This document shows, in pieces, positions 6,283 through 64,000 of a stretch of 64,000 bases of DNA. Made by a program: the position numbers and the translations under genes. The stretch's first letter is position 1; every line of letters starts with the position of its first letter. Below the pieces are notes generated by a model. That model worked only from the letters and a program-made list of their open reading frames with translations. It searched no databases and was not told where the DNA came from. Source of the stretch: Earliella scabrosa (lineage: Eukaryota > Basidiomycota > Agaricomycetes > Polyporales > Polyporaceae); NCBI GenBank assembly GCA_022605405.1, contig JABYQQ010000015.1, forward strand, positions 1,265,148-1,329,147, written 5' to 3'.

Positions 6283-6746
6283 GGTCGTTGGCTCCAGAGA
6301 GCTAGCGTCGCTTTGGCTTGTTACTCTTCGGAGGCCATGAGGACAGCCTAAGCAGCCCCGCGAGTCGGTTGATGCATCGATGGTGTATCGGTAAGTAGGG
6401 ACCGTGGGAAGGTTGGTACCATCGTTGGTGTTTCGGCGCCTACCGAACGTTTGCCCACCGATCTCTCATTCCTATCCTTCGCGCGACACGCCCTCCAGTG
6501 GGCCTGACTTTTTGCTCATTTGAACCTGTTCAGGCCGAGTTTCTGTACGTCAGGTAGTGTAGATCAATCAGGCGCGATCGCCTCCGATCTATACATCAGT
6601 TGTAAGTATCGCAAGTACTAGGACTCCAGTGGCTAACGCGTAGACATTCGAACTTCGTGATTCCAGTTAGTCAGATGCTCACACAGACTATATGTTCCTA
6701 GGTTAATTGAAGCTGCACTTATATACGCCGGGAAAGTGTCACTGTC
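6283..6746. promoter_or_regulatory. Shared 464-bp divergent intergenic region
   Basis: This region separates two F-box genes transcribed away from each other (start codons at 6282 on the minus strand and 6747 on the plus strand). It must hold both core promoters unless there are distant 5' exons. Sequence around 6660-6725 is locally AT-richer (ATATACGCC just before the plus-strand start), but I see no convincing TATA box or repeated operator. Confidence 0.4.
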
Positions 6747-8384
6747 ATGTCCGGTCCCCGCCTTACATGGGACATTCTCCGCGAAGTCGCTTTCGTTGCA
6801 CCTCGCCAGACCTGCGCAACGCTCATGTGCACCTGTCATTTCTTCTACCATGAAGCTGCGATATCTGCTCTACAAGACGAAGTGGAGCTCAGCAGCCAAA
6901 CACGCATCGACCGATTCCTCCTCTTCCTGCAGGCAGGGAGCAATCCTCGCTTTCCACACGTCCGCAACGTCAACATTCAGATAGGCCCCAACGCAACCTT
7001 CCTAGACCTCGAGGCTATGGATAGACTAGTGCGAGCGTTTCCGCTCATGACCGGCATTGTTACCCTCAGCCTAGGAAATACGCAGAAAATGCTGGAGACA
7101 TGGCCCGCATTCGGAGAAGCCCTGGCCGCCCTCACTTCGCTCCGTAGAATGAAGATATGTGGAGGAGGCCCACGAACGGCCCAGCTGCTGTCCTCCCAGT
7201 CGTCAGGCTTGACCACCGACCGTCTAATTGCTCTCGAGGTTGACTGGGCACGCGAGTATGAAGACGAGGATGATGTCGCCGGCCACTTCTTCCAAACGGA
7301 ACTCACGTCGGACGCGTGGCGTTCCATGCACCCCGTTCCGTTCCTGAGCAAGTGGACATCGACTCTCGAGGAGCTCTCCTGCAAGTGCTGGCACACATAC
7401 CCTGATGCGCAGCCGCTCTCCCTCTTCACCGAAGTGTATCCGAAGATGCGCAAGCTGCAAATCGAGTACGATTATCACCTTGTCGCTGCTCACTACATCC
7501 GAGCGTTCCCGAACCTCGTCTCTCTCCACCTGTGGACCGGCCACACCGCGGTCATCCCCGATGTCCAGAACAATGCTGCGGCCGAGCGGATTGACGCACT
7601 CCGGGACGAGAACATGCAGATGCAGCATAGGCTCGGACTAGACAGCCTTACATCATACTGGCAGCACCTCGATGAATACACCGGATCGCTGACCCACCTC
7701 TACATCCTCGGCCTCACCTGTCGTATCTGCGCCATGAGGTTCGACGAGGCAGTGTCCGAGGCGCATCTTCCGCTACTCTTGGCCGTGCTCTCGCACGCAC
7801 AGCCGGTCCATCTCAAGATCCATGGGTGGGCAGCCCTTCTCGACCACCCCACACATAGGCTCGCATGGGTCCTCCAGCAGGCTGACTGCGCTAGGCGGCT
7901 CGAAAGCTTGGCCATTCACCTCACGCTTCACAGCCTCAACAAACGCGATATGGACGTTGCTCTCAGATTCGTGAGTGCCGGTCCATTCTCTGAGTATCGT
8001 TCGTTGACCATCTCCGTGGTGTGCTTCCGTTGGCGGTCTCTTGTCCTACATCAGGACGAGCTGGCCACAATGCTGGCAGGTATACCAGGACCACTTCGCC
8101 GTCTGCGACTACGCGTCACCGGACACGTTAGTCACTTGAGCCGGCCTTCGCGCTCCAAGACGCCCCCGCAACTAGGGGTCTTACTCTCTCAAGTCGACGC
8201 CCAAGCATATGTCCAGAAACTTGTAAAGGCTATTCCGACGCTCACGGATGTGGTGATAGTCATTGACGGTCGTTGGGTCGATCGGCATGGGGGTACGTTC
8301 AGGAGGACGGATGGCGACGAACCGGACTGGATGAAGGGCGTGTTAGATCCTACAATGTATGAGGTGGACCGCTTGTCGAGGTGA
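6747..8384 (+). CDS. F-box protein, LRR-like, main exon 545 aa
   Basis: A single open frame of 545 codons begins with ATG at 6747. Residues about 5-45 match an F-box-like start (PRLTWDILREVAFVAP, then TCHFFYHEAA), and the rest is a Leu-rich region with repeated short motifs such as FPNLVSLHLW and LESLAIHL, as in fungal F-box/LRR substrate receptors of SCF ligases. The family is supported by pattern only; no substrate can be named. The printed end is the in-frame TGA at 8382-8384. A good donor (GTGAGC at 8381), a CTGAC branch site and an acceptor (CCAG at 8463) directly follow, and bases 8464-8646 read as a protein-like stretch ending DDQE and TGA. That suggests a C-terminal exon, but the phases do not match simply, so its inclusion is left open. 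Confidence 0.75.
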   Translation: MSGPRLTWDILREVAFVAPRQTCATLMCTCHFFYHEAAISALQDEVELSSQTRIDRFLLFLQAGSNPRFPHVRNVNIQIGPNATFLDLEAMDRLVRAFPLMTGIVTLSLGNTQKMLETWPAFGEALAALTSLRRMKICGGGPRTAQLLSSQSSGLTTDRLIALEVDWAREYEDEDDVAGHFFQTELTSDAWRSMHPVPFLSKWTSTLEELSCKCWHTYPDAQPLSLFTEVYPKMRKLQIEYDYHLVAAHYIRAFPNLVSLHLWTGHTAVIPDVQNNAAAERIDALRDENMQMQHRLGLDSLTSYWQHLDEYTGSLTHLYILGLTCRICAMRFDEAVSEAHLPLLLAVLSHAQPVHLKIHGWAALLDHPTHRLAWVLQQADCARRLESLAIHLTLHSLNKRDMDVALRFVSAGPFSEYRSLTISVVCFRWRSLVLHQDELATMLAGIPGPLRRLRLRVTGHVSHLSRPSRSKTPPQLGVLLSQVDAQAYVQKLVKAIPTLTDVVIVIDGRWVDRHGGTFRRTDGDEPDWMKGVLDPTMYEVDRLSR

Positions 8385-38526: not shown

Positions 38527-39181
38527 CTCTTCAGCGGTATCTCGTGAGCGACCAGACCAGGACGATATGCTATAACAAGTACTATACAGTGTACTCCTGC
38601 TTCCTTGCTTCGTAGTCTGTCCATGCACATTCAATGTATATTATTGGCATCGTTTCGGCTCGCGCATCTGTATTCCGATTCGTCTATCTACTGCTGCTGC
38701 TTCTCTGTACATGTTCCGTGATTCGTCTGTATCGCACATACTACGTGCTCTGTCCGCCTCACCGTGGGTCTCATTGTACACGCCAAAAGATTCCCGCCCC
38801 TGTACACTTACATAGTTGCTTGCTTGATGCGGCATCAATTAGTCTGTCTTTCTGAAGTCAATGAGTGAATCGATCGTGTCGCGCAGAGTAGCCGTCCGCG
38901 CCGTGCGGTATGTCCTGGATCTGAGATCTGAGATCAGGCATGCTGTAGGCGCCCCGGGTCTATCGGACTTGTGTCTGCGACTTTTGCAGCGTGCTCCGCA
39001 TCCACCACCAACGTGCTTGACCTCCCTCTATACGACTGTCTTCCTCTTTGCTCAGCTCGCCTCGCACATAATATCGCACCTGCGGGACGTCTGGGCAGCA
39101 CGGCAACGCAAATAGTGCAGCAGCTCGACCCGTACGCGGACGCGAACGCACTATCGCTACACGGACAGCAAGAACGTGACG
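38527..39181. other. Intergenic region between cyclophilin and CIR_N genes
   Basis: No gene is seen. The left part should carry the cyclophilin 3' UTR and the right part the promoter of the next gene. Both genes run in the same direction. Confidence 0.5.
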
Positions 39182-40410
39182 ATGGGCAAGTTGAACATCG
39201 CCCACCACAAGTCGTACCACCCTTACCGGCGGGACAACATCGAGCGCGTGCGGCGGGACGAGGAGGCTGCGCGGCTCAACGAGGCGGCCAAGGAAGGCCG
39301 GATGTTGCTCGCGGTACGTCGCCGTCTCATTGCCTTCGTTCTCTCGGGTTGGGGTGGGGATGGAGTTGAGGGGATGCGGGTGCTGAGGCTGGTGTTTGTA
39401 GGACTCAGAGGCGAGGATGGAGCTGTTGAGGGAGCGGGCGGGATTGACGGGTGGGAAGAGGAGGAGGCGCAGAGGAGACGACGGGGATGGCCTGGAGCAA
39501 GCAATCGCGAAGAGAGAAGAGGAGGACATGGAGCATTCGGCGGACGCGTGCGTGTCGACGCTCACGTCGGCCAGTGGGCACATCAACTTGTTCTCTGACC
39601 TCGAGAGGGTGCGTCGCTGCTGGTCCGCGCCGACTTCCCTTGGGACCCAGTACTGAAGGACGTGCAATATCTGGACTGCAGAATATGCTGGCGATGATGC
39701 CCGTGCGCTCGACGAAGAAGGGAACCGGGCCGGCGTCGTCGGAGAGTGAGAAGGGAGTCGCGCTCGCGCCGTCCGCGAAAGACCTCAAGCCGCGGTACTC
39801 CGCGAAGGACTCCGACCAGAGCAGGGAGACGGACGAGAACAAACGGTACGTCTGCCTATCGTTCACGCGACTTGTTGATGCGCCTGAATCTGACATTAGT
39901 TTTGCGTTCTTTGCGATCTTGACGCATGACGTGCTCTTGTACGTTTGCTTTGTCTACAGGGTCCGTGACGTCGCGCGCAAGTCGGCACTCGACCCGCTCA
40001 CTCAGCTCGTCTACCGTTCTGGCCCCTCTGCGTCATCAAGGACGCCCTCCGCACGATCCACTCGAGCACTCCCTCCTTCACAGCCCTGCACTCGATCCGA
40101 ACCTGCGCGTCCCACGACCGGTCCGCCCAGCCTGGGTACGATCCCGCGCATGAACCCGGAGGCCGAGCGGGAGAGTCGCGAGTCCGGGGAGCGGCTGCGC
40201 GCGCTAGAGCTTATCCGGCGGAAGAAACGCGATATGGAGGGAAGCGAGACGCCGCGCACTGTGCATGGCGGGAACAAGGGCGACGGGTTCAGCTATGGAG
40301 ACGTATTCAATCGGAGGGAGGTCGAGGCGGCGCAGAAGGCGCGGAGGAGGGGCGTAGAGCGAGACCGGGAGAGGGCGGGATATGGCTCAGCGTCGGAGTG
40401 GCGGGGATGA
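39182..40410 (+). CDS. CIR_N-domain protein, LENG1-like, spliceosome-associated (317 aa, 4 exons)
   Basis: Exons are 39182-39313, 39402-39608, 39682-39845 and 39960-40410 (introns 88, 73 and 114 nt), giving 317 residues. The N-terminus (MGKLNIAHHKSYHPYRRDN, then RVRRDEEAAR and RMLLADSEARMELLRERAG) matches the CIR_N domain found in CIR, CWC25-type and LENG1 proteins. A SGHINLFSDLE motif at about residue 104 is the second LENG1 hallmark. The rest is low-complexity and charged, with a basic C-terminal region ending in a segment rich in Arg/Glu (REVEAAQKARRRGVERDRER). Homologues associate with the spliceosome in the nucleus; a precise role here is inference. The start was set at the ATG at 39182 because the domain begins there in homologues. 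The middle of exon 4 (Ser/Pro/Thr-rich) may hide an unrecognised intron. Confidence 0.82.
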
Positions 40411-42999: not shown

Positions 43000-43760
43000 A
43001 TGATAGCATTTCTCATCGGCGTATTGCTCGTCACCTTGGTTGCCCTCGCCTCGTGCGACACACCGCCCAAGGTTGTAGTAGACAACGCCGATCCGAGAGT
43101 TCAGTACACAGGCAGATGGATACGAAACCCAGACGCAGACCCCATGCAACTGAGCTATGCAGGCACGCTCTCGCTGTCAAACACCCCACACTCAAATGCG
43201 ACGCTCACCTTAGAAGGCGGTATGTGCACTTTGTTCCTCCGCTCTAGGACAGGCTGCTAACTCACAGCTGTAGCTATGCTGTGGTCGGGTCATTCTCGTT
43301 GATGGGGACGCATTCGATGAAGTCGCAGTACACCATCGACGGGACGAACGTCACGCAATCTTGGCCGCCCGACACGGGTCCAATTCACCAGCAGAGATTC
43401 TATCTTTCCGAAATGATCTCCACCGACGAACACACGCTCGTAATCACCCATGCCGGCGAGGCATTCTATCTCGACTACATCCGGCTCTATTTTCCCCAAT
43501 CATCCTCTTCCTCGCAATCATCCTCTTCCTCGCAATCATCCTCTTCCTCGCAATCATCCTCTACTCCCGCGCCGTCCCACACATCATCTACATCCCCATC
43601 TCAAGTAGTTCCTACCGCGCAAGCGTCGAGCGCGGAAGATACACCGGCTCCGCCGCCTGCTTCAGCCACATTGGCTGGAACTCCTCCCTGGCAGCATGGG
43701 AACGCTGTCCCTTTCAAACGTCTCCCAGACGACGGCGACCTTCGTCTTTCATGGCGGTGA
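43000..43760 (+). CDS. Small secreted protein with galactose-binding-like domain and Ser/Gln repeat (236 aa, 2 exons)
   Basis: Exons are 43000-43223 and 43274-43760. The 50-nt intron uses GTGCAC, a GCTAAC branch site and GTAG; the alternative donor GTATGT at 43220 breaks the frame, whereas this one yields TLEGGIYAVVGSFSLMG. Residues 1-19 are a signal peptide (MIAFLIGVLLVTLVALASC). Residues about 25-160 resemble the beta-sandwich ectodomain common in Agaricomycete secreted or single-pass proteins: VVVDNADPRVQYTGRW, ATLTLEGGIYAVVGSF, YTIDGTNV, HTLVITHAGEAFYLDY. Potential N-glycosylation sites include NAT and NVT. A Ser/Gln-rich stalk follows. Relatives usually continue into a membrane helix and a cytoplasmic tail, but here the frame stops without one, so the gene may be truncated or may have an unrecognised last exon. 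Its function is unknown; sugar binding is only suggested by the fold. Confidence 0.65.
43497..43562 (+). repeat. 18-bp coding minisatellite (about 3.7 copies)
   Basis: CAATCATCCTCTTCCTCG is repeated three times exactly plus a 12-base partial copy. It encodes the QSSSSS repeats of the stalk in the preceding protein and is expected to vary in copy number between strains. Confidence 0.9.
43690..43752 (+). pseudogene. Fragment of a second copy of the galactose-binding-like domain
   Basis: In another frame, overlapping the 3' end of the preceding CDS, bases 43696-43752 read MGTLSLSNVSQTTATFVFHG, which aligns with AGTLSLSNTPHSNATLTLEG encoded at 43165-43216. Both copies end at a splice-donor-like site (GGCGGTGAGT here, GGCGGTATGT there). 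The rest of the second copy is not recognisable. This is best explained as the remains of a tandem duplicate. Confidence 0.5.
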
Positions 43761-46474: not shown

Positions 46475-49182
46475 ATCAGCGGGGTTGGAATTTGCCGACT
46501 GATCCGACCGTCCATATATGGAGCAACCTGCCTTTCTGAGACGCATGTCTCAAAATGGACAAGTATACCCGATATGGACGCACTCAAGCGCCAGCGTTTC
46601 TTCCGTCCTCGTTCTCCTCGTCCAGGGCGCATCCATATCTTCTGACCCGGCTATCCCTCTGTAATACTATAAGACATTCGATACATCGTTGGGTACTCAT
46701 ACTATGCGCAAAAATCCTCACTCCTTTACTCTCCAACCCACCTGCCACTGAGACTTGAGTCCTAATCACCTCCCACCATTGACGTTAACGACACACACGG
46801 AGGAAGGTCCTGCTCCTCATTAGCACTTCTTCTGAACCTCATCTTAGCCTCTGGACGGTGCCAGTGAAGTCCAGCGCAGCCTCTCTCCAACTTGAACAGT
46901 CTCAAGCACCCTTCCCTCGTTCTCCTGGTTCATTCTGGATATCTCGTCATACCTGATCTCCCAGAGTGTAATGCCGGCAGCTGGGACCATTCAGACCACC
47001 GATGTGAGGGGCTCCGTCGCTCCTTTCATGTTTCTGGAGCCAGAGCTCGGAGTACTCCGGATACTAGCCGTGAATGTTGCCGAAGCTACGCGATTGAGCA
47101 GGAGAGGATAGATGACGTTTCAACTGGTGTAATTGGCCCATTCTATAGGCATACGTAGCGTAGCACGGCGGAGGAATAGGAAAGACGCAGAAGACGCCCG
47201 AGACGCGTCGTGGACGCGTCGACGTGTATAGATCTTGACGCGGTGTCGGAGATCAAAATTGTGCTGACAAACTCAGATTTCGACCCTCTCGGTTCAAGCC
47301 CGGATTTGAAAGCAGACTAACGCAGGGCGTACGGGCAGAAAAAACATGGACAAGTTCGCGACGAGCCTCAGGCGCTCGCCGTATCCCTCACGTGCTTCGC
47401 GCCCCCAGCGCTCTGCCAGTGGCAGTGCCCATTGCCCGCTCGCTCTGCTCGATTCCCTCGCGCGATACGAGCTGCTTTCGTTCCTTTCCGTTCCTCTCGC
47501 TCTTCTTCCGTCCGCGCGAGTGCTGCAGTATGCCCCGGTATCTCCTCGTTGCTTGTCGCATTCTCTGCACTCTCGACCAGCCTCCTCTCGCGACGTTCAC
47601 CTGAAAACTCATCGATCTCCTGCCGGCCTTTCGGCACCCAGCATCTGTGGCCCAGAACGATCGCGGTCACGTCGGTGGACAGCCTGAGGGGAGAACAGGA
47701 CGAGGGGATGGGCGGCGGTAGAAGAAGCTCGAGGACAAGGACGAGGGGGAGCGCATTCGTGAGGTCTGGGCCTTAGAGGTGCGCACTTGCTGCTTGTGTC
47801 TTTAACTGCTCTTCCCTTCCGCACCTCCACATGCCGTCTCCAGCGGCGACGATGTCTGCGGACGGATGTCGACGCCCGCTCTACCCGTTCCTCACTATAA
47901 ACATATGGGGCGTGACGCTCCTATCCCTCACTCACATCGTCTTCTTTCAAGCAGGTCCCCTCGGTTGTAAGTTATTGAGGGACCTCACAGCGCGTCTCGA
48001 GGACGGCGAGAACGACTTTGACGACACCTAGGTTCCCGTCTTTTGCGAAGCGCAGCCCAGACAGGATTAATGTCCTCCCTCTCCCCAATAGTGAGTCATC
48101 AGGCCTTGAGAGTCGAGGAGCGTGGCGGTGGGCAGACGTCACGGTAAGTCTTTCCATTTCCGCGTGAAGAAGCTCTAACCCTGCACGCATGTCCCCCTCT
48201 ATCGCGTACGTGTAGGCGATCGTTCTGACTGGCGCTTTGCTTCTACAAGCAGACCTCCTTGAAATGCTATGACCCCTCGCCAATCCGCTCCTGACCTTTG
48301 TTCTGCACTGGAACAGGACATCCATGCCCTTCGATCGCGTACTACCCGACGACGGGCTTGAGGACCCACTCAAGAACCCCGCGCTGTCACGCACGCGCAT
48401 CTCGCGTGCAGAGACATACGCGCATCGCGTTGCGGAGCAGATGGCGTTCCTGCGCTAATGTTCATCGAGCTCATCCACGACGCGCCCCCTCCTCATCCTA
48501 CCCGTCCTCCTCACACCTGCCAAGCCCGTTTGGATTCTCACTGGTACGAGGAGAGTCGAGCGGCGGTATTGGGGCGTTGACCGCTCGGAGATGTCTCGTT
48601 CCGTTTGGGTAGCCGGCAATGAGGCAGGTCTTGAACGCTTGAGGGGCTCAGTTTCGAAGGTCGGGTGCGGTGTTACATCTGGTGTCCGCCTCCGTATGAT
48701 GATCTCCGAGACGGCGGAGGTGCTTATCTTGTGGTGGCATCTGTCGTGCCCTGAAGCTGATGCGTCATTGACATATTAAGTACCTTGCTAGAGCACCGAG
48801 GTCATACTCCGTCATGTCAATGTACCCCGACTGTCACGACCCGTCGTATTTGGCCAAAACCGCTGTGCTGTACCAGGGAGCGCACGCGTCCCGCTCAGCC
48901 TCTGTCTCGGCATGCACGAGAACCGCGATGGGTTCGTTCACGGGCGACTCCTGTATGGGTGCATTCACCAGAAACCAGATGCTCAGCGGGTACCGTATTG
49001 CGGCGCGCAGGGGGTTAGCGTTTACGACGATCTTTGTGGGCTGCTGACTTAATGCGGAAGATGGGCTGGAGGGGGGATATAGGTAGCTAGTCCGTCCATG
49101 AACCATCGGGGAGCTGGTAGTCGATGAAGAGTTCCAGTAAGAACCATGTCACCATGGTCTCTCAGGAGATCTGTCTGTGTGT
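46475..49182. other. Unassigned region left of the satellite
   Basis: No gene is supported. Frames at 47346-47687 and 47831-48031 (the latter with a GVTLLSLTHIVFFQAGPLG segment) and the 78-codon ATG frame at 48814-49047 are isolated and show no family motif. GC is somewhat lower between 46640 and 46800. Confidence 0.4.
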
Positions 49183-49285
49183 GGTTGTGTAGTATGATAT
49201 CATATACTTGAATGTCTTGTAAATGTGTATTCTGATTGTAATGTATTCAATGTGTATTTATGACCAATAGTTAATAAAGTGTTAG
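49183..49285 (+). other. AT-rich boundary segment next to the satellite
   Basis: About 100 bases of markedly AT-rich sequence (TGATATCATATACTTGAATG and similar) directly abut the satellite. It contains AATAAA at 49273-49278, eight bases before the repeat identity starts. It could be the 3' end of a transcript or an AT-rich junction typical of array edges. Confidence 0.4.
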
Positions 49286-52200
49286 CGACGGTCGGAGTGT
49301 GACGGGTTGAAGTGTTGGGTAAACGAGGTAAGCGTTGGGTAAACGAGTCAGAGGGCGAGGGTTGAAGTGTTGGGTTGACGCGTTAGTGTGCGAGGGTTGA
49401 AGCGTTGAGGACGAGGGTCAGAGCGTCGGGTTGACGTGTTAGAGACGAGTTGAAGCGTCAGGGTGACGTGTTAGGGACGACGGCTAGAGTGTTAGTGTGC
49501 GACGTTAGAGCGCTGGGTTAACGCGTTAGAGAGCGAGAGTTGAAGCGTTAGGGACGACGGTCGGAGTGTGACGGGTTGAAGTGTTGGGTAAACGAGGTAA
49601 GCGTTGGGTAAACGAGTCAGAGGGCGAGGGTTGAAGTGTTGGGTTGACGCGTTAGTGTGCGAGGGTTGAAGCGTTGAGGACGAGGGTCAGAGCGTCGGGT
49701 TGACGTGTTAGAGACGAGTTGAAGCGTCAGGGTGACGTGTTAGGGACGACGGCTAGAGTGTTAGTGTGCGACGTTAGAGCGCTGGGTTAACGCGTTAGAG
49801 AGCGAGAGTTGAAGCGTTAGGGACGACGGTCGGAGTGTGACGGGTTGAAGTGTTGGGTAAACGAGGTAAGCGTTGGGTAAACGAGTCAGAGGGCGAGGGT
49901 TGAAGTGTTGGGTTGACGCGTTAGTGTGCGAGGGTTGAAGCGTTGAGGACGAGGGTCAGAGCGTCGGGTTGACGTGTTAGAGACGAGTTGAAGCGTCAGG
50001 GTGACGTGTTAGGGACGACGGCTAGAGTGTTAGTGTGCGACGTTAGAGCGCTGGGTTAACGCGTTAGAGAGCGAGAGTTGAAGCGTTAGGGACGACGGTC
50101 GGAGTGTGACGGGTTGAAGTGTTGGGTAAACGAGGTAAGCGTTGGGTAAACGAGTCAGAGGGCGAGGGTTGAAGTGTTGGGTTGACGCGTTAGTGTGCGA
50201 GGGTTGAAGCGTTGAGGACGAGGGTCAGAGCGTCGGGTTGACGTGTTAGAGACGAGTTGAAGCGTCAGGGTGACGTGTTAGGGACGACGGCTAGAGTGTT
50301 AGTGTGCGACGTTAGAGCGCTGGGTTAACGCGTTAGAGAGCGAGAGTTGAAGCGTTAGGGACGACGGTCGGAGTGTGACGGGTTGAAGTGTTGGGTAAAC
50401 GAGGTAAGCGTTGGGTAAACGAGTCAGAGGGCGAGGGTTGAAGTGTTGGGTTGACGCGTTAGTGTGCGAGGGTTGAAGCGTTGAGGACGAGGGTCAGAGC
50501 GTCGGGTTGACGTGTTAGAGACGAGTTGAAGCGTCAGGGTGACGTGTTAGGGACGACGGCTAGAGTGTTAGTGTGCGACGTTAGAGCGCTGGGTTAACGC
50601 GTTAGAGAGCGAGAGTTGAAGCGTTAGGGACGACGGTCGGAGTGTGACGGGTTGAAGTGTTGGGTAAACGAGGTAAGCGTTGGGTAAACGAGTCAGAGGG
50701 CGAGGGTTGAAGTGTTGGGTTGACGCGTTAGTGTGCGAGGGTTGAAGCGTTGAGGACGAGGGTCAGAGCGTCGGGTTGACGTGTTAGAGACGAGTTGAAG
50801 CGTCAGGGTGACGTGTTAGGGACGACGGCTAGAGTGTTAGTGTGCGACGTTAGAGCGCTGGGTTAACGCGTTAGAGAGCGAGAGTTGAAGCGTTAGGGAC
50901 GACGGTCGGAGTGTGACGGGTTGAAGTGTTGGGTAAACGAGGTAAGCGTTGGGTAAACGAGTCAGAGGGCGAGGGTTGAAGTGTTGGGTTGACGCGTTAG
51001 TGTGCGAGGGTTGAAGCGTTGAGGACGAGGGTCAGAGCGTCGGGTTGACGTGTTAGAGACGAGTTGAAGCGTCAGGGTGACGTGTTAGGGACGACGGCTA
51101 GAGTGTTAGTGTGCGACGTTAGAGCGCTGGGTTAACGCGTTAGAGAGCGAGAGTTGAAGCGTTAGGGACGACGGTCGGAGTGTGACGGGTTGAAGTGTTG
51201 GGTAAACGAGGTAAGCGTTGGGTAAACGAGTCAGAGGGCGAGGGTTGAAGTGTTGGGTTGACGCGTTAGTGTGCGAGGGTTGAAGCGTTGAGGACGAGGG
51301 TCAGAGCGTCGGGTTGACGTGTTAGAGACGAGTTGAAGCGTCAGGGTGACGTGTTAGGGACGACGGCTAGAGTGTTAGTGTGCGACGTTAGAGCGCTGGG
51401 TTAACGCGTTAGAGAGCGAGAGTTGAAGCGTTAGGGACGACGGTCGGAGTGTGACGGGTTGAAGTGTTGGGTAAACGAGGTAAGCGTTGGGTAAACGAGT
51501 CAGAGGGCGAGGGTTGAAGTGTTGGGTTGACGCGTTAGTGTGCGAGGGTTGAAGCGTTGAGGACGAGGGTCAGAGCGTCGGGTTGACGTGTTAGAGACGA
51601 GTTGAAGCGTCAGGGTGACGTGTTAGGGACGACGGCTAGAGTGTTAGTGTGCGACGTTAGAGCGCTGGGTTAACGCGTTAGAGAGCGAGAGTTGAAGCGT
51701 TAGGGACGACGGTCGGAGTGTGACGGGTTGAAGTGTTGGGTAAACGAGGTAAGCGTTGGGTAAACGAGTCAGAGGGCGAGGGTTGAAGTGTTGGGTTGAC
51801 GCGTTAGTGTGCGAGGGTTGAAGCGTTGAGGACGAGGGTCAGAGCGTCGGGTTGACGTGTTAGAGACGAGTTGAAGCGTCAGGGTGACGTGTTAGGGACG
51901 ACGGCTAGAGTGTTAGTGTGCGACGTTAGAGCGCTGGGTTAACGCGTTAGAGAGCGAGAGTTGAAGCGTTAGGGACGACGGTCGGAGTGTGACGGGTTGA
52001 AGTGTTGGGTAAACGAGGTAAGCGTTGGGTAAACGAGTCAGAGGGCGAGGGTTGAAGTGTTGGGTTGACGCGTTAGTGTGCGAGGGTTGAAGCGTTGAGG
52101 ACGAGGGTCAGAGCGTCGGGTTGACGTGTTAGAGACGAGTTGAAGCGTCAGGGTGACGTGTTAGGGACGACGGCTAGAGTGTTAGTGTGCGACGTTAGAG

Positions 52201-55200
52201 CGCTGGGTTAACGCGTTAGAGAGCGAGAGTTGAAGCGTTAGGGACGACGGTCGGAGTGTGACGGGTTGAAGTGTTGGGTAAACGAGGTAAGCGTTGGGTA
52301 AACGAGTCAGAGGGCGAGGGTTGAAGTGTTGGGTTGACGCGTTAGTGTGCGAGGGTTGAAGCGTTGAGGACGAGGGTCAGAGCGTCGGGTTGACGTGTTA
52401 GAGACGAGTTGAAGCGTCAGGGTGACGTGTTAGGGACGACGGCTAGAGTGTTAGTGTGCGACGTTAGAGCGCTGGGTTAACGCGTTAGAGAGCGAGAGTT
52501 GAAGCGTTAGGGACGACGGTCGGAGTGTGACGGGTTGAAGTGTTGGGTAAACGAGGTAAGCGTTGGGTAAACGAGTCAGAGGGCGAGGGTTGAAGTGTTG
52601 GGTTGACGCGTTAGTGTGCGAGGGTTGAAGCGTTGAGGACGAGGGTCAGAGCGTCGGGTTGACGTGTTAGAGACGAGTTGAAGCGTCAGGGTGACGTGTT
52701 AGGGACGACGGCTAGAGTGTTAGTGTGCGACGTTAGAGCGCTGGGTTAACGCGTTAGAGAGCGAGAGTTGAAGCGTTAGGGACGACGGTCGGAGTGTGAC
52801 GGGTTGAAGTGTTGGGTAAACGAGGTAAGCGTTGGGTAAACGAGTCAGAGGGCGAGGGTTGAAGTGTTGGGTTGACGCGTTAGTGTGCGAGGGTTGAAGC
52901 GTTGAGGACGAGGGTCAGAGCGTCGGGTTGACGTGTTAGAGACGAGTTGAAGCGTCAGGGTGACGTGTTAGGGACGACGGCTAGAGTGTTAGTGTGCGAC
53001 GTTAGAGCGCTGGGTTAACGCGTTAGAGAGCGAGAGTTGAAGCGTTAGGGACGACGGTCGGAGTGTGACGGGTTGAAGTGTTGGGTAAACGAGGTAAGCG
53101 TTGGGTAAACGAGTCAGAGGGCGAGGGTTGAAGTGTTGGGTTGACGCGTTAGTGTGCGAGGGTTGAAGCGTTGAGGACGAGGGTCAGAGCGTCGGGTTGA
53201 CGTGTTAGAGACGAGTTGAAGCGTCAGGGTGACGTGTTAGGGACGACGGCTAGAGTGTTAGTGTGCGACGTTAGAGCGCTGGGTTAACGCGTTAGAGAGC
53301 GAGAGTTGAAGCGTTAGGGACGACGGTCGGAGTGTGACGGGTTGAAGTGTTGGGTAAACGAGGTAAGCGTTGGGTAAACGAGTCAGAGGGCGAGGGTTGA
53401 AGTGTTGGGTTGACGCGTTAGTGTGCGAGGGTTGAAGCGTTGAGGACGAGGGTCAGAGCGTCGGGTTGACGTGTTAGAGACGAGTTGAAGCGTCAGGGTG
53501 ACGTGTTAGGGACGACGGCTAGAGTGTTAGTGTGCGACGTTAGAGCGCTGGGTTAACGCGTTAGAGAGCGAGAGTTGAAGCGTTAGGGACGACGGTCGGA
53601 GTGTGACGGGTTGAAGTGTTGGGTAAACGAGGTAAGCGTTGGGTAAACGAGTCAGAGGGCGAGGGTTGAAGTGTTGGGTTGACGCGTTAGTGTGCGAGGG
53701 TTGAAGCGTTGAGGACGAGGGTCAGAGCGTCGGGTTGACGTGTTAGAGACGAGTTGAAGCGTCAGGGTGACGTGTTAGGGACGACGGCTAGAGTGTTAGT
53801 GTGCGACGTTAGAGCGCTGGGTTAACGCGTTAGAGAGCGAGAGTTGAAGCGTTAGGGACGACGGTCGGAGTGTGACGGGTTGAAGTGTTGGGTAAACGAG
53901 GTAAGCGTTGGGTAAACGAGTCAGAGGGCGAGGGTTGAAGTGTTGGGTTGACGCGTTAGTGTGCGAGGGTTGAAGCGTTGAGGACGAGGGTCAGAGCGTC
54001 GGGTTGACGTGTTAGAGACGAGTTGAAGCGTCAGGGTGACGTGTTAGGGACGACGGCTAGAGTGTTAGTGTGCGACGTTAGAGCGCTGGGTTAACGCGTT
54101 AGAGAGCGAGAGTTGAAGCGTTAGGGACGACGGTCGGAGTGTGACGGGTTGAAGTGTTGGGTAAACGAGGTAAGCGTTGGGTAAACGAGTCAGAGGGCGA
54201 GGGTTGAAGTGTTGGGTTGACGCGTTAGTGTGCGAGGGTTGAAGCGTTGAGGACGAGGGTCAGAGCGTCGGGTTGACGTGTTAGAGACGAGTTGAAGCGT
54301 CAGGGTGACGTGTTAGGGACGACGGCTAGAGTGTTAGTGTGCGACGTTAGAGCGCTGGGTTAACGCGTTAGAGAGCGAGAGTTGAAGCGTTAGGGACGAC
54401 GGTCGGAGTGTGACGGGTTGAAGTGTTGGGTAAACGAGGTAAGCGTTGGGTAAACGAGTCAGAGGGCGAGGGTTGAAGTGTTGGGTTGACGCGTTAGTGT
54501 GCGAGGGTTGAAGCGTTGAGGACGAGGGTCAGAGCGTCGGGTTGACGTGTTAGAGACGAGTTGAAGCGTCAGGGTGACGTGTTAGGGACGACGGCTAGAG
54601 TGTTAGTGTGCGACGTTAGAGCGCTGGGTTAACGCGTTAGAGAGCGAGAGTTGAAGCGTTAGGGACGACGGTCGGAGTGTGACGGGTTGAAGTGTTGGGT
54701 AAACGAGGTAAGCGTTGGGTAAACGAGTCAGAGGGCGAGGGTTGAAGTGTTGGGTTGACGCGTTAGTGTGCGAGGGTTGAAGCGTTGAGGACGAGGGTCA
54801 GAGCGTCGGGTTGACGTGTTAGAGACGAGTTGAAGCGTCAGGGTGACGTGTTAGGGACGACGGCTAGAGTGTTAGTGTGCGACGTTAGAGCGCTGGGTTA
54901 ACGCGTTAGAGAGCGAGAGTTGAAGCGTTAGGGACGACGGTCGGAGTGTGACGGGTTGAAGTGTTGGGTAAACGAGGTAAGCGTTGGGTAAACGAGTCAG
55001 AGGGCGAGGGTTGAAGTGTTGGGTTGACGCGTTAGTGTGCGAGGGTTGAAGCGTTGAGGACGAGGGTCAGAGCGTCGGGTTGACGTGTTAGAGACGAGTT
55101 GAAGCGTCAGGGTGACGTGTTAGGGACGACGGCTAGAGTGTTAGTGTGCGACGTTAGAGCGCTGGGTTAACGCGTTAGAGAGCGAGAGTTGAAGCGTTAG

Positions 55201-58200
55201 GGACGACGGTCGGAGTGTGACGGGTTGAAGTGTTGGGTAAACGAGGTAAGCGTTGGGTAAACGAGTCAGAGGGCGAGGGTTGAAGTGTTGGGTTGACGCG
55301 TTAGTGTGCGAGGGTTGAAGCGTTGAGGACGAGGGTCAGAGCGTCGGGTTGACGTGTTAGAGACGAGTTGAAGCGTCAGGGTGACGTGTTAGGGACGACG
55401 GCTAGAGTGTTAGTGTGCGACGTTAGAGCGCTGGGTTAACGCGTTAGAGAGCGAGAGTTGAAGCGTTAGGGACGACGGTCGGAGTGTGACGGGTTGAAGT
55501 GTTGGGTAAACGAGGTAAGCGTTGGGTAAACGAGTCAGAGGGCGAGGGTTGAAGTGTTGGGTTGACGCGTTAGTGTGCGAGGGTTGAAGCGTTGAGGACG
55601 AGGGTCAGAGCGTCGGGTTGACGTGTTAGAGACGAGTTGAAGCGTCAGGGTGACGTGTTAGGGACGACGGCTAGAGTGTTAGTGTGCGACGTTAGAGCGC
55701 TGGGTTAACGCGTTAGAGAGCGAGAGTTGAAGCGTTAGGGACGACGGTCGGAGTGTGACGGGTTGAAGTGTTGGGTAAACGAGGTAAGCGTTGGGTAAAC
55801 GAGTCAGAGGGCGAGGGTTGAAGTGTTGGGTTGACGCGTTAGTGTGCGAGGGTTGAAGCGTTGAGGACGAGGGTCAGAGCGTCGGGTTGACGTGTTAGAG
55901 ACGAGTTGAAGCGTCAGGGTGACGTGTTAGGGACGACGGCTAGAGTGTTAGTGTGCGACGTTAGAGCGCTGGGTTAACGCGTTAGAGAGCGAGAGTTGAA
56001 GCGTTAGGGACGACGGTCGGAGTGTGACGGGTTGAAGTGTTGGGTAAACGAGGTAAGCGTTGGGTAAACGAGTCAGAGGGCGAGGGTTGAAGTGTTGGGT
56101 TGACGCGTTAGTGTGCGAGGGTTGAAGCGTTGAGGACGAGGGTCAGAGCGTCGGGTTGACGTGTTAGAGACGAGTTGAAGCGTCAGGGTGACGTGTTAGG
56201 GACGACGGCTAGAGTGTTAGTGTGCGACGTTAGAGCGCTGGGTTAACGCGTTAGAGAGCGAGAGTTGAAGCGTTAGGGACGACGGTCGGAGTGTGACGGG
56301 TTGAAGTGTTGGGTAAACGAGGTAAGCGTTGGGTAAACGAGTCAGAGGGCGAGGGTTGAAGTGTTGGGTTGACGCGTTAGTGTGCGAGGGTTGAAGCGTT
56401 GAGGACGAGGGTCAGAGCGTCGGGTTGACGTGTTAGAGACGAGTTGAAGCGTCAGGGTGACGTGTTAGGGACGACGGCTAGAGTGTTAGTGTGCGACGTT
56501 AGAGCGCTGGGTTAACGCGTTAGAGAGCGAGAGTTGAAGCGTTAGGGACGACGGTCGGAGTGTGACGGGTTGAAGTGTTGGGTAAACGAGGTAAGCGTTG
56601 GGTAAACGAGTCAGAGGGCGAGGGTTGAAGTGTTGGGTTGACGCGTTAGTGTGCGAGGGTTGAAGCGTTGAGGACGAGGGTCAGAGCGTCGGGTTGACGT
56701 GTTAGAGACGAGTTGAAGCGTCAGGGTGACGTGTTAGGGACGACGGCTAGAGTGTTAGTGTGCGACGTTAGAGCGCTGGGTTAACGCGTTAGAGAGCGAG
56801 AGTTGAAGCGTTAGGGACGACGGTCGGAGTGTGACGGGTTGAAGTGTTGGGTAAACGAGGTAAGCGTTGGGTAAACGAGTCAGAGGGCGAGGGTTGAAGT
56901 GTTGGGTTGACGCGTTAGTGTGCGAGGGTTGAAGCGTTGAGGACGAGGGTCAGAGCGTCGGGTTGACGTGTTAGAGACGAGTTGAAGCGTCAGGGTGACG
57001 TGTTAGGGACGACGGCTAGAGTGTTAGTGTGCGACGTTAGAGCGCTGGGTTAACGCGTTAGAGAGCGAGAGTTGAAGCGTTAGGGACGACGGTCGGAGTG
57101 TGACGGGTTGAAGTGTTGGGTAAACGAGGTAAGCGTTGGGTAAACGAGTCAGAGGGCGAGGGTTGAAGTGTTGGGTTGACGCGTTAGTGTGCGAGGGTTG
57201 AAGCGTTGAGGACGAGGGTCAGAGCGTCGGGTTGACGTGTTAGAGACGAGTTGAAGCGTCAGGGTGACGTGTTAGGGACGACGGCTAGAGTGTTAGTGTG
57301 CGACGTTAGAGCGCTGGGTTAACGCGTTAGAGAGCGAGAGTTGAAGCGTTAGGGACGACGGTCGGAGTGTGACGGGTTGAAGTGTTGGGTAAACGAGGTA
57401 AGCGTTGGGTAAACGAGTCAGAGGGCGAGGGTTGAAGTGTTGGGTTGACGCGTTAGTGTGCGAGGGTTGAAGCGTTGAGGACGAGGGTCAGAGCGTCGGG
57501 TTGACGTGTTAGAGACGAGTTGAAGCGTCAGGGTGACGTGTTAGGGACGACGGCTAGAGTGTTAGTGTGCGACGTTAGAGCGCTGGGTTAACGCGTTAGA
57601 GAGCGAGAGTTGAAGCGTTAGGGACGACGGTCGGAGTGTGACGGGTTGAAGTGTTGGGTAAACGAGGTAAGCGTTGGGTAAACGAGTCAGAGGGCGAGGG
57701 TTGAAGTGTTGGGTTGACGCGTTAGTGTGCGAGGGTTGAAGCGTTGAGGACGAGGGTCAGAGCGTCGGGTTGACGTGTTAGAGACGAGTTGAAGCGTCAG
57801 GGTGACGTGTTAGGGACGACGGCTAGAGTGTTAGTGTGCGACGTTAGAGCGCTGGGTTAACGCGTTAGAGAGCGAGAGTTGAAGCGTTAGGGACGACGGT
57901 CGGAGTGTGACGGGTTGAAGTGTTGGGTAAACGAGGTAAGCGTTGGGTAAACGAGTCAGAGGGCGAGGGTTGAAGTGTTGGGTTGACGCGTTAGTGTGCG
58001 AGGGTTGAAGCGTTGAGGACGAGGGTCAGAGCGTCGGGTTGACGTGTTAGAGACGAGTTGAAGCGTCAGGGTGACGTGTTAGGGACGACGGCTAGAGTGT
58101 TAGTGTGCGACGTTAGAGCGCTGGGTTAACGCGTTAGAGAGCGAGAGTTGAAGCGTTAGGGACGACGGTCGGAGTGTGACGGGTTGAAGTGTTGGGTAAA

Positions 58201-61200
58201 CGAGGTAAGCGTTGGGTAAACGAGTCAGAGGGCGAGGGTTGAAGTGTTGGGTTGACGCGTTAGTGTGCGAGGGTTGAAGCGTTGAGGACGAGGGTCAGAG
58301 CGTCGGGTTGACGTGTTAGAGACGAGTTGAAGCGTCAGGGTGACGTGTTAGGGACGACGGCTAGAGTGTTAGTGTGCGACGTTAGAGCGCTGGGTTAACG
58401 CGTTAGAGAGCGAGAGTTGAAGCGTTAGGGACGACGGTCGGAGTGTGACGGGTTGAAGTGTTGGGTAAACGAGGTAAGCGTTGGGTAAACGAGTCAGAGG
58501 GCGAGGGTTGAAGTGTTGGGTTGACGCGTTAGTGTGCGAGGGTTGAAGCGTTGAGGACGAGGGTCAGAGCGTCGGGTTGACGTGTTAGAGACGAGTTGAA
58601 GCGTCAGGGTGACGTGTTAGGGACGACGGCTAGAGTGTTAGTGTGCGACGTTAGAGCGCTGGGTTAACGCGTTAGAGAGCGAGAGTTGAAGCGTTAGGGA
58701 CGACGGTCGGAGTGTGACGGGTTGAAGTGTTGGGTAAACGAGGTAAGCGTTGGGTAAACGAGTCAGAGGGCGAGGGTTGAAGTGTTGGGTTGACGCGTTA
58801 GTGTGCGAGGGTTGAAGCGTTGAGGACGAGGGTCAGAGCGTCGGGTTGACGTGTTAGAGACGAGTTGAAGCGTCAGGGTGACGTGTTAGGGACGACGGCT
58901 AGAGTGTTAGTGTGCGACGTTAGAGCGCTGGGTTAACGCGTTAGAGAGCGAGAGTTGAAGCGTTAGGGACGACGGTCGGAGTGTGACGGGTTGAAGTGTT
59001 GGGTAAACGAGGTAAGCGTTGGGTAAACGAGTCAGAGGGCGAGGGTTGAAGTGTTGGGTTGACGCGTTAGTGTGCGAGGGTTGAAGCGTTGAGGACGAGG
59101 GTCAGAGCGTCGGGTTGACGTGTTAGAGACGAGTTGAAGCGTCAGGGTGACGTGTTAGGGACGACGGCTAGAGTGTTAGTGTGCGACGTTAGAGCGCTGG
59201 GTTAACGCGTTAGAGAGCGAGAGTTGAAGCGTTAGGGACGACGGTCGGAGTGTGACGGGTTGAAGTGTTGGGTAAACGAGGTAAGCGTTGGGTAAACGAG
59301 TCAGAGGGCGAGGGTTGAAGTGTTGGGTTGACGCGTTAGTGTGCGAGGGTTGAAGCGTTGAGGACGAGGGTCAGAGCGTCGGGTTGACGTGTTAGAGACG
59401 AGTTGAAGCGTCAGGGTGACGTGTTAGGGACGACGGCTAGAGTGTTAGTGTGCGACGTTAGAGCGCTGGGTTAACGCGTTAGAGAGCGAGAGTTGAAGCG
59501 TTAGGGACGACGGTCGGAGTGTGACGGGTTGAAGTGTTGGGTAAACGAGGTAAGCGTTGGGTAAACGAGTCAGAGGGCGAGGGTTGAAGTGTTGGGTTGA
59601 CGCGTTAGTGTGCGAGGGTTGAAGCGTTGAGGACGAGGGTCAGAGCGTCGGGTTGACGTGTTAGAGACGAGTTGAAGCGTCAGGGTGACGTGTTAGGGAC
59701 GACGGCTAGAGTGTTAGTGTGCGACGTTAGAGCGCTGGGTTAACGCGTTAGAGAGCGAGAGTTGAAGCGTTAGGGACGACGGTCGGAGTGTGACGGGTTG
59801 AAGTGTTGGGTAAACGAGGTAAGCGTTGGGTAAACGAGTCAGAGGGCGAGGGTTGAAGTGTTGGGTTGACGCGTTAGTGTGCGAGGGTTGAAGCGTTGAG
59901 GACGAGGGTCAGAGCGTCGGGTTGACGTGTTAGAGACGAGTTGAAGCGTCAGGGTGACGTGTTAGGGACGACGGCTAGAGTGTTAGTGTGCGACGTTAGA
60001 GCGCTGGGTTAACGCGTTAGAGAGCGAGAGTTGAAGCGTTAGGGACGACGGTCGGAGTGTGACGGGTTGAAGTGTTGGGTAAACGAGGTAAGCGTTGGGT
60101 AAACGAGTCAGAGGGCGAGGGTTGAAGTGTTGGGTTGACGCGTTAGTGTGCGAGGGTTGAAGCGTTGAGGACGAGGGTCAGAGCGTCGGGTTGACGTGTT
60201 AGAGACGAGTTGAAGCGTCAGGGTGACGTGTTAGGGACGACGGCTAGAGTGTTAGTGTGCGACGTTAGAGCGCTGGGTTAACGCGTTAGAGAGCGAGAGT
60301 TGAAGCGTTAGGGACGACGGTCGGAGTGTGACGGGTTGAAGTGTTGGGTAAACGAGGTAAGCGTTGGGTAAACGAGTCAGAGGGCGAGGGTTGAAGTGTT
60401 GGGTTGACGCGTTAGTGTGCGAGGGTTGAAGCGTTGAGGACGAGGGTCAGAGCGTCGGGTTGACGTGTTAGAGACGAGTTGAAGCGTCAGGGTGACGTGT
60501 TAGGGACGACGGCTAGAGTGTTAGTGTGCGACGTTAGAGCGCTGGGTTAACGCGTTAGAGAGCGAGAGTTGAAGCGTTAGGGACGACGGTCGGAGTGTGA
60601 CGGGTTGAAGTGTTGGGTAAACGAGGTAAGCGTTGGGTAAACGAGTCAGAGGGCGAGGGTTGAAGTGTTGGGTTGACGCGTTAGTGTGCGAGGGTTGAAG
60701 CGTTGAGGACGAGGGTCAGAGCGTCGGGTTGACGTGTTAGAGACGAGTTGAAGCGTCAGGGTGACGTGTTAGGGACGACGGCTAGAGTGTTAGTGTGCGA
60801 CGTTAGAGCGCTGGGTTAACGCGTTAGAGAGCGAGAGTTGAAGCGTTAGGGACGACGGTCGGAGTGTGACGGGTTGAAGTGTTGGGTAAACGAGGTAAGC
60901 GTTGGGTAAACGAGTCAGAGGGCGAGGGTTGAAGTGTTGGGTTGACGCGTTAGTGTGCGAGGGTTGAAGCGTTGAGGACGAGGGTCAGAGCGTCGGGTTG
61001 ACGTGTTAGAGACGAGTTGAAGCGTCAGGGTGACGTGTTAGGGACGACGGCTAGAGTGTTAGTGTGCGACGTTAGAGCGCTGGGTTAACGCGTTAGAGAG
61101 CGAGAGTTGAAGCGTTAGGGACGACGGTCGGAGTGTGACGGGTTGAAGTGTTGGGTAAACGAGGTAAGCGTTGGGTAAACGAGTCAGAGGGCGAGGGTTG

Positions 61201-64000
61201 AAGTGTTGGGTTGACGCGTTAGTGTGCGAGGGTTGAAGCGTTGAGGACGAGGGTCAGAGCGTCGGGTTGACGTGTTAGAGACGAGTTGAAGCGTCAGGGT
61301 GACGTGTTAGGGACGACGGCTAGAGTGTTAGTGTGCGACGTTAGAGCGCTGGGTTAACGCGTTAGAGAGCGAGAGTTGAAGCGTTAGGGACGACGGTCGG
61401 AGTGTGACGGGTTGAAGTGTTGGGTAAACGAGGTAAGCGTTGGGTAAACGAGTCAGAGGGCGAGGGTTGAAGTGTTGGGTTGACGCGTTAGTGTGCGAGG
61501 GTTGAAGCGTTGAGGACGAGGGTCAGAGCGTCGGGTTGACGTGTTAGAGACGAGTTGAAGCGTCAGGGTGACGTGTTAGGGACGACGGCTAGAGTGTTAG
61601 TGTGCGACGTTAGAGCGCTGGGTTAACGCGTTAGAGAGCGAGAGTTGAAGCGTTAGGGACGACGGTCGGAGTGTGACGGGTTGAAGTGTTGGGTAAACGA
61701 GGTAAGCGTTGGGTAAACGAGTCAGAGGGCGAGGGTTGAAGTGTTGGGTTGACGCGTTAGTGTGCGAGGGTTGAAGCGTTGAGGACGAGGGTCAGAGCGT
61801 CGGGTTGACGTGTTAGAGACGAGTTGAAGCGTCAGGGTGACGTGTTAGGGACGACGGCTAGAGTGTTAGTGTGCGACGTTAGAGCGCTGGGTTAACGCGT
61901 TAGAGAGCGAGAGTTGAAGCGTTAGGGACGACGGTCGGAGTGTGACGGGTTGAAGTGTTGGGTAAACGAGGTAAGCGTTGGGTAAACGAGTCAGAGGGCG
62001 AGGGTTGAAGTGTTGGGTTGACGCGTTAGTGTGCGAGGGTTGAAGCGTTGAGGACGAGGGTCAGAGCGTCGGGTTGACGTGTTAGAGACGAGTTGAAGCG
62101 TCAGGGTGACGTGTTAGGGACGACGGCTAGAGTGTTAGTGTGCGACGTTAGAGCGCTGGGTTAACGCGTTAGAGAGCGAGAGTTGAAGCGTTAGGGACGA
62201 CGGTCGGAGTGTGACGGGTTGAAGTGTTGGGTAAACGAGGTAAGCGTTGGGTAAACGAGTCAGAGGGCGAGGGTTGAAGTGTTGGGTTGACGCGTTAGTG
62301 TGCGAGGGTTGAAGCGTTGAGGACGAGGGTCAGAGCGTCGGGTTGACGTGTTAGAGACGAGTTGAAGCGTCAGGGTGACGTGTTAGGGACGACGGCTAGA
62401 GTGTTAGTGTGCGACGTTAGAGCGCTGGGTTAACGCGTTAGAGAGCGAGAGTTGAAGCGTTAGGGACGACGGTCGGAGTGTGACGGGTTGAAGTGTTGGG
62501 TAAACGAGGTAAGCGTTGGGTAAACGAGTCAGAGGGCGAGGGTTGAAGTGTTGGGTTGACGCGTTAGTGTGCGAGGGTTGAAGCGTTGAGGACGAGGGTC
62601 AGAGCGTCGGGTTGACGTGTTAGAGACGAGTTGAAGCGTCAGGGTGACGTGTTAGGGACGACGGCTAGAGTGTTAGTGTGCGACGTTAGAGCGCTGGGTT
62701 AACGCGTTAGAGAGCGAGAGTTGAAGCGTTAGGGACGACGGTCGGAGTGTGACGGGTTGAAGTGTTGGGTAAACGAGGTAAGCGTTGGGTAAACGAGTCA
62801 GAGGGCGAGGGTTGAAGTGTTGGGTTGACGCGTTAGTGTGCGAGGGTTGAAGCGTTGAGGACGAGGGTCAGAGCGTCGGGTTGACGTGTTAGAGACGAGT
62901 TGAAGCGTCAGGGTGACGTGTTAGGGACGACGGCTAGAGTGTTAGTGTGCGACGTTAGAGCGCTGGGTTAACGCGTTAGAGAGCGAGAGTTGAAGCGTTA
63001 GGGACGACGGTCGGAGTGTGACGGGTTGAAGTGTTGGGTAAACGAGGTAAGCGTTGGGTAAACGAGTCAGAGGGCGAGGGTTGAAGTGTTGGGTTGACGC
63101 GTTAGTGTGCGAGGGTTGAAGCGTTGAGGACGAGGGTCAGAGCGTCGGGTTGACGTGTTAGAGACGAGTTGAAGCGTCAGGGTGACGTGTTAGGGACGAC
63201 GGCTAGAGTGTTAGTGTGCGACGTTAGAGCGCTGGGTTAACGCGTTAGAGAGCGAGAGTTGAAGCGTTAGGGACGACGGTCGGAGTGTGACGGGTTGAAG
63301 TGTTGGGTAAACGAGGTAAGCGTTGGGTAAACGAGTCAGAGGGCGAGGGTTGAAGTGTTGGGTTGACGCGTTAGTGTGCGAGGGTTGAAGCGTTGAGGAC
63401 GAGGGTCAGAGCGTCGGGTTGACGTGTTAGAGACGAGTTGAAGCGTCAGGGTGACGTGTTAGGGACGACGGCTAGAGTGTTAGTGTGCGACGTTAGAGCG
63501 CTGGGTTAACGCGTTAGAGAGCGAGAGTTGAAGCGTTAGGGACGACGGTCGGAGTGTGACGGGTTGAAGTGTTGGGTAAACGAGGTAAGCGTTGGGTAAA
63601 CGAGTCAGAGGGCGAGGGTTGAAGTGTTGGGTTGACGCGTTAGTGTGCGAGGGTTGAAGCGTTGAGGACGAGGGTCAGAGCGTCGGGTTGACGTGTTAGA
63701 GACGAGTTGAAGCGTCAGGGTGACGTGTTAGGGACGACGGCTAGAGTGTTAGTGTGCGACGTTAGAGCGCTGGGTTAACGCGTTAGAGAGCGAGAGTTGA
63801 AGCGTTAGGGACGACGGTCGGAGTGTGACGGGTTGAAGTGTTGGGTAAACGAGGTAAGCGTTGGGTAAACGAGTCAGAGGGCGAGGGTTGAAGTGTTGGG
63901 TTGACGCGTTAGTGTGCGAGGGTTGAAGCGTTGAGGACGAGGGTCAGAGCGTCGGGTTGACGTGTTAGAGACGAGTTGAAGCGTCAGGGTGACGTGTTGG
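49286..64000 (+). repeat. 269-bp tandem satellite, about 54.7 copies, continuing past the window
   Basis: A 269-bp unit repeats head to tail from 49286 to the right edge. The marker TCGGAGTG starts at 49292, 49561, 49830 and, 54 periods later, exactly at 63818, so there is no net insertion or deletion over 14.5 kb; units I compared by eye were identical. The only deviation noticed is G for A at 63999. The + strand of the unit is G-rich with thirteen GGG runs, contains TTAGGG twice and lacks CC and AT dinucleotides. It is built from related motifs of about 11 and 22 bp (GGGTTGAAGCG, TTAGTGTGCGA and variants). No coding frame exists, and 269 is not a multiple of three. Candidates are a subtelomeric or centromeric satellite, or a collapsed or over-extended assembly of one. 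Confidence 0.97.

Follow-up and report, generated by a model that had tools for sequence, protein, structure and literature searches.

What kind of DNA repeats one 269-bp unit, letter for letter, up to the point where an assembled fungal contig stops? The question is posed by Earliella scabrosa, a polypore of the family Polyporaceae whose assembly comprises 51.67 Mb in 48 contigs, at the right end of its contig C15. The window, the whole 64,000-nucleotide stretch analysed here, is C15:1265148-1329147; contigs are written as C with their number, and R or L denotes the right or left contig end. The right edge of the window (64000) is the right end of C15 (base 1,329,147), and the array reaches it. 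Because C15 stops there, the 54 copies counted below are a lower limit set by the assembly.

A first-pass annotation of this DNA had described 54 successive periods of 269 bp, free of indels and with identical units, that cover almost a quarter of the window. This proves accurate: all 54 full units from 49286 are identical to each other (54/54) and lead into a 189-base partial 55th unit, and Tandem Repeats Finder, run on the window, reports 49286-63998 at period 269 with 54.7 copies, 100% matches and 0% indels. The array measures 14,715 bp, or 23% of the window. The annotation was also right in taking it for a very homogeneous fungal satellite that was either recently made or strongly homogenised. 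Strand composition sets the array apart, with a GC skew of about 0.56 (the plus strand is G-rich), while none of the 49 bins of 1 kb before 49000 departs from zero by more than 0.29. The break in period at its very end (Table 1) is probably a read error.

The repeat is rejected as coding sequence, its stretches between stop codons reaching at most 28 codons on the plus strand and 64 on the minus strand. Known structured RNAs and tRNAs were likewise rejected for the window, with no Rfam match at gathering score and none found by ARAGORN. Mean G4Hunter scores of the satellite are 0.64-0.74, against 1.5 for TTAGGG, and at this modest G-quadruplex strength we make no G4 claim for it.

Table 1. Features at the right end of the window, in window positions
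Feature	Position	Strand	Remark
Apparently non-coding subtelomeric element, about 1.9 kb	47369..49285	+	70-89% identity to other array flanks
Conserved boundary box (ATGACCAATAG...GTGTTAG)	49260..49285	+	about 26 bp, directly before first unit
First-unit start (CGACGGTCGGAGTGTGACGGGTTGAAG)	49286..49312	+	common entry phase
Terminal array (54 identical 269-bp units and most of the 189-base partial unit)	49286..63998	+	G-rich strand toward contig end
Last two contig bases, period broken	63999..64000	+	sole departure from 269-bp period

Related arrays and their units

We sampled all 96 contig ends of the assembly over 250 to 10,000 bases each: the left ends of C1-C9 and the array ends to 10,000 bases or to the end of the contig, the right ends of 20 contigs over 250 bases. 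These are assembly ends, not proven chromosome ends. Satellite related to the 269-bp unit closes 12 of the 96, on 12 contigs (C3R, C9R, C14L, C15R, C19R, C22L, C23L, C25L, C27L, C29L, C31R and C33R). At every one of the 12 the G-rich strand runs 5' to 3' outwards and no more than 16 bases separate the satellite match from the contig end; were each orientation decided independently by a fair coin, all twelve would agree with a probability of about 0.0005. An outward G-rich strand is the orientation of the G-rich strand of telomeres and is not expected of broken internal arrays. With 12 of 12 placed arrays pointing outwards, the hint at a centromere in the first-pass annotation, which had suggested ChIP for CENP-A, finds no support.

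The unplaced contig C46 (23.7 kb) has satellite at both ends, in one direction. Besides the 12 ends and C46, one other piece was seen, an 85-bp relic on C17; the genome-wide search for satellite scored 6 of 15 candidate regions, so that further arrays inside contigs may exist. Neither satellite nor TTAGGG was found at 81 of the 96 ends; one of the 81, C32L, reads N over its outermost 250 bases (C32:1-800, locus L051). Seven arrays, totalling 55,456 bp, were covered in full. C9R, C14L, C25L, C27L and C29L were covered at their outer end and start (C14L also in two inner stretches), and their lengths of about 10.9-23.7 kb assume continuity.

Unit length in the family ranges from 240 to 275 bp: 240 bp in C23L and C27L, 262 bp in C19R, C3R and C29L, 263 bp in C33R, 264 bp in C31R, C25L and the C14L outer consensus, 269 bp in C15R, and 275 bp in C22L and C46, while C9R was too noisy to yield a unit. 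We compared 12 unit consensuses (10 distinct), a set that includes C46 and C14L and leaves out C9R. Units of different ends are 71-93% identical, except for two pairs at 100%, C22L with C46 and the C14L outer unit with C31R; C46 is, to judge from its unit, probably a fragment separated from the C22L array. Within ends the picture is different. In the seven fully covered arrays we count 203 exact units, and a further six stretches are non-exact, two of them at the contig end; the variants include a 184-bp unit in C23L, 56 bp shorter than its fellows, and others in C31R and C22L. C14L has a single differing base near the array start, at its inner edge, and C15R and C33R deviate from the unit in their last few bases. 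Since the 184-bp unit of C23L and the differing base of C14L survive in the assembly, consensus making did not flatten everything; the exact homogeneity may nonetheless be partly consensus-made.

The units carry a telomere-like signal. Over the 12 consensuses, the TTAGGG class has 1003 matches (at most one mismatch, any rotation) and ranks first of the 670 cyclic hexamer classes, ahead of 744 for the next class and 513 for the next of equal composition. With one mismatch allowed, each of the 11 units tested scores above every one of its 300 dinucleotide shuffles; the units are homologous, and these per-unit tests are thus not independent. Exact TTAGGG words give a weaker test, in which the observed count is equalled or exceeded by 0 to 45 of the 300 shuffles, depending on the unit, with the highest numbers for C46 and C22L. 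A complex unit related to simple telomere repeats, as in terminal satellites of the Chironomus type, is therefore what the array ends of E. scabrosa carry; the short TTAGGG-type unit of a canonical telomere is not, the C15R unit being 269 bp long.

Plain telomere repeats are scarce in the assembly. A run of four exact TTAGGG is present at a single place, the right end of C8 (C8R; C8:2240392-2240451, locus L049), and this is the one contig end of 96 that stops in TTAGGG. The DNA that it adjoins is not satellite and, compared by eye, presumably resembles coding sequence from the neighbourhood of a KDZ-type transposon; the 1.4 kb before the TTAGGG has no copies elsewhere apart from 60-bp pieces at C25 and C1. 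This end might be a healed break. TTAGGG twice in a row (TTAGGGTTAGGG) occurs in none of the 13 sampled array stretches (the 12 ends and the left end of C46). A telomerase RNA-binding domain is encoded on C16, scoring above the Pfam cut-off in a frame without stops, and in the polypore Ganoderma leucocontextum TTAGGG is found at both ends of all 13 chromosomes, according to PMC10817607. These two observations together make a TTAGGG cap beyond the satellites likely, and such a cap, made by telomerase, is the most likely terminus of the array ends of E. scabrosa.

The boundary box and the flanks

The array starts share a short conserved box. In seven of the seven starts located by periodicity alone the box directly precedes the array. 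Across these seven, 13 of 26 box columns do not vary; of the 30 adjoining upstream columns 1 is invariant, and of the next 30 further upstream, 4. Exact repetition starts 24-28 bases after the first base of the word GACCAAYAG in the box in all seven fully covered arrays, with no divergent unit in between. A search with the box pattern added five more array starts and the C17 relic, each then followed by satellite, and 8 of the 13 junctions, counted by eye, enter the satellite in one phase, that of CGACGGTCGGAGTGTGACGGGTTGAAG. BLAST between flanks found only 38-66 bp in common with C3R and nothing in common with C23L, so that conservation of the box extends to ends whose flanks are otherwise unlike. 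Only near-exact matches to the pattern are specific: tolerating up to three mismatches yields 67 forward and 87 reverse matches, against 65 and 75 for a reversed control, while 10 of the 10 matches with no or one mismatch, and 2 of the 12 with two, lie at arrays or at the C17 relic. We considered a promoter (CCAAT with GATAAA) or a poly(A) signal in the box, and take these to be candidate motifs only.

The C17 relic (C17:1272060-1272400, locus L115) consists of the box and 85 bp of satellite that point inwards, 3 kb from the contig end. It is a truncated remnant of an array, perhaps one from a rearranged chromosome end.

Inward of the box of C15R lies an element of about 1.9 kb which is common, whole or in part, to the flanks of C14L, C19R, C27L, C31R, C33R and C22L, with pieces at C17. 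Copies also lie well inside two contigs, 94 kb from the end in one case (C8:2145451-2146868) and 34 kb in the other (C4:34388-35554). The two matches extend only as far as query positions 1566 and 1168, respectively, in a query of 1917, and stop before the box is reached; it is possible that they mark former chromosome ends. A coding function of the element was rejected: the C15 and C19 copies show no codon periodicity (121/121/121 mismatches by position), and the one frame tested had no Pfam match. The idea of a helicase element of the TLH or Y' kind was also rejected, the sole RecQ_Zn_bind match lying at C8:238507 and not beside an array (three of three candidates scored, with this one domain). 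Further inwards, a 1.2-kb segment at 39179-40370 of the window is about 70% identical to the DNA just inside the C33R array, which extends the common subtelomeric sequence about 10 kb inwards.

Flanks and arrays do not tell the same history. The nearest match to the C15R flank is the flank of C14L, at 89%, but the units of these two ends are only 72% identical; with C19R the flanks are 77% and the units 89% identical. These discordant values indicate that the histories of flank and array disagree. C14L is itself a mosaic, in that its inner units are 95% like those of C25L while the units 11 kb further out equal the C31R unit at 100%, and the DNA before the boxes of C14L and C31R, compared over about 100 bases, differs. 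The outer part of C14L could have been copied from a C31R-type array, or two similar arrays could have been falsely joined. Spread between ends looks rare. Most array ends carry a recognisable unit, so that a comparison of strains could make exchange between ends directly visible.

Origin of the arrays

We think it likely that the C15R array represents the outermost assembled part of a chromosome end, and that it belongs to a telomere-derived family of subtelomeric satellites which is re-amplified end by end through recombination. Directly seen in the assembly are the position and orientation of the arrays, the box, the mostly different units, the uniformity from the start and the one mosaic. 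Such a family could have begun when a stretch of degenerate TTAGGG repeats, next to the ancestral boundary of the subtelomere, was captured and became the unit of 240-275 bp. The captured unit would then have been re-amplified outwards at single ends by recombination, faster than sequence spread between ends, with rolling-circle copying of an excised circle, t-loop self-copying or break-induced replication as possible copying routes. Now and then one end might copy its outer part from another, as C14L may have done from a C31R-type array, and beyond each array telomerase would add the TTAGGG cap. The likely role of the satellite would be that of a G-rich, telomere-like buffer giving homology for the rebuilding of eroded ends. 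Uniform units from the first copy outward, a feature of ALT and roll-and-spread arrays, were found in seven of the seven fully covered arrays.

The main objection to this interpretation is that the arrays may be a subtelomeric satellite homogenised only by unequal sister-chromatid exchange and gene conversion within arrays. Unequal exchange is the usual account of concerted evolution and fits identity within ends combined with divergence between them; the short unit of C23L looks like its product, the single base that differs where the C14L array begins is the start of edge decay that it leads one to expect, and rolling-circle copying and unequal exchange leave similar arrays. It should, however, leave divergent units at the inner edge, where seven of seven arrays are exact right after the box, and, if the C14L array is not misjoined, its outer unit can be identical to that of C31R only through exchange between ends. 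We regard homogenisation of this kind alone as possible rather than probable. A different objection, which the first-pass annotation had also raised, is that assembly or polishing made real but more variable arrays look perfectly homogeneous, or joined different unit types. All 12 arrays do end contigs, and towards the ends of C9R, C14L and C31R there are scattered differences that look like errors, a sign that consensus quality varies within arrays; yet variants have survived in C23L, C31R, C22L and, as a single base, C14L, and polishing cannot yield differences of 7-29% between ends. The variants of C23L and C14L in particular weaken this worry without removing it, and we consider an artefact unlikely.

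Two further readings concern where the arrays lie. Arrays commonly cause contig breaks, and one could suppose that the contigs broke at satellites of centromeres or of other places inside chromosomes, but each such break gives one outward and one inward end, whereas none of the 12 ends is inward, and the telomere-like composition of the units also speaks against an internal satellite; we give this explanation almost no credence. Alternatively, the satellite itself could be the terminal telomere DNA, as in Chironomus, maintained by recombination despite the predicted telomerase gene. Twelve contig ends stop in satellite and one in TTAGGG, the strand orientation and telomere-like words of the units fit a telomeric role, and no sampled array stretch has two TTAGGG in a row. 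Against this stand the telomerase domain, the TTAGGG end of C8R and the TTAGGG ends of Ganoderma leucocontextum described in PMC10817607. Nor does stopping in satellite prove a terminus, since C46, with the C22L unit at both of its ends, reveals that contigs broke within arrays. We hold a satellite terminus to be quite improbable. The more specific proposal of a wild-type ALT-like system beside telomerase, with complex satellites as the working termini of at least 12 ends, each rebuilt from its own unit by recombination from a fixed box, is to us equally a long shot.

Known systems and the rest of the window

The first-pass annotation knew of no named fungal satellite with this unit, and we too found neither a named fungal counterpart nor any other fungal equivalent of the E. 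scabrosa end satellites in the open-access literature. The closest descriptions come from other groups. Chironomus has telomeric satellites with units of about 350 bp, long complex units at chromosome ends as in E. scabrosa, as well as shorter 176-bp units and end-specific subfamilies. E. scabrosa differs in that it encodes a telomerase domain and has one contig end made of TTAGGG, and the likeness is one of description. In PMC9498494 the Chironomus satellites are presented as a non-telomerase alternative that forms the telomere, and a title in its reference list relates complex end repeats to simple telomeric repeats.

Yeasts offer models of how such arrays could be made. In telomerase-negative (ALT) cells of Naumovozyma castellii, the ends carry TelKO arrays of a 325-bp composite unit that are identical within and between arrays, and the units contain TG-rich stretches and partial telomere words, so that they resemble the tandem end arrays of E. 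scabrosa (PMC12408736). The TelKO arrays arise after loss of telomerase, with one variant spreading to all ends, whereas the ends of E. scabrosa have mostly different units. In roll-and-spread of Kluyveromyces lactis a circle is copied into an array at one end, which may then spread by break-induced replication, as set out in PMC3486848; this would explain both the uniform arrays of E. scabrosa and the unit shared by C14L and C31R. The process amplifies true telomere repeats in laboratory mutants, unlike the complex units here, and between-end spread looks rare in E. scabrosa. Nematodes of the genus Meloidogyne have complex, relatively G-rich repeats at contig ends, where the strand depends on the end concerned, and some contigs consist of repeat throughout (PMC10844300). 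Meloidogyne is reported to have no telomerase that could be found, in contrast to the telomerase domain of E. scabrosa, and the accessible description mentions no units private to single ends.

TLH and Y'-like elements are a further point of comparison, being repeated subtelomeric DNA like that of E. scabrosa. They place a RecQ helicase gene by the telomere, whereas the 1.9-kb element of E. scabrosa lacks codon periodicity and its RecQ_Zn_bind match lies away from the arrays; in Ganoderma, RecQ genes are reported near some telomeres (PMC10817607).

Long complex satellites derived from simple telomere repeats are known mainly from flies, nematodes and yeast mutants. E. scabrosa would show satellite emerging from telomere repeats and taking their place in an unmutated organism, one that has a telomerase gene, homogeneous end arrays and a box at which they start.

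Far from the array, a WD40-repeat protein is encoded at 3844-8384 of the window, together with a protein whose Polyporus and Lentinus relatives are named F-box proteins; the latter gave no Pfam match, and a second relative of it on the same contig suggests a local gene family. Closer to the array, at 43497-43562, lies a perfect 18-bp tandem repeat of 3.7 copies, inside open frames of which one is serine-rich.
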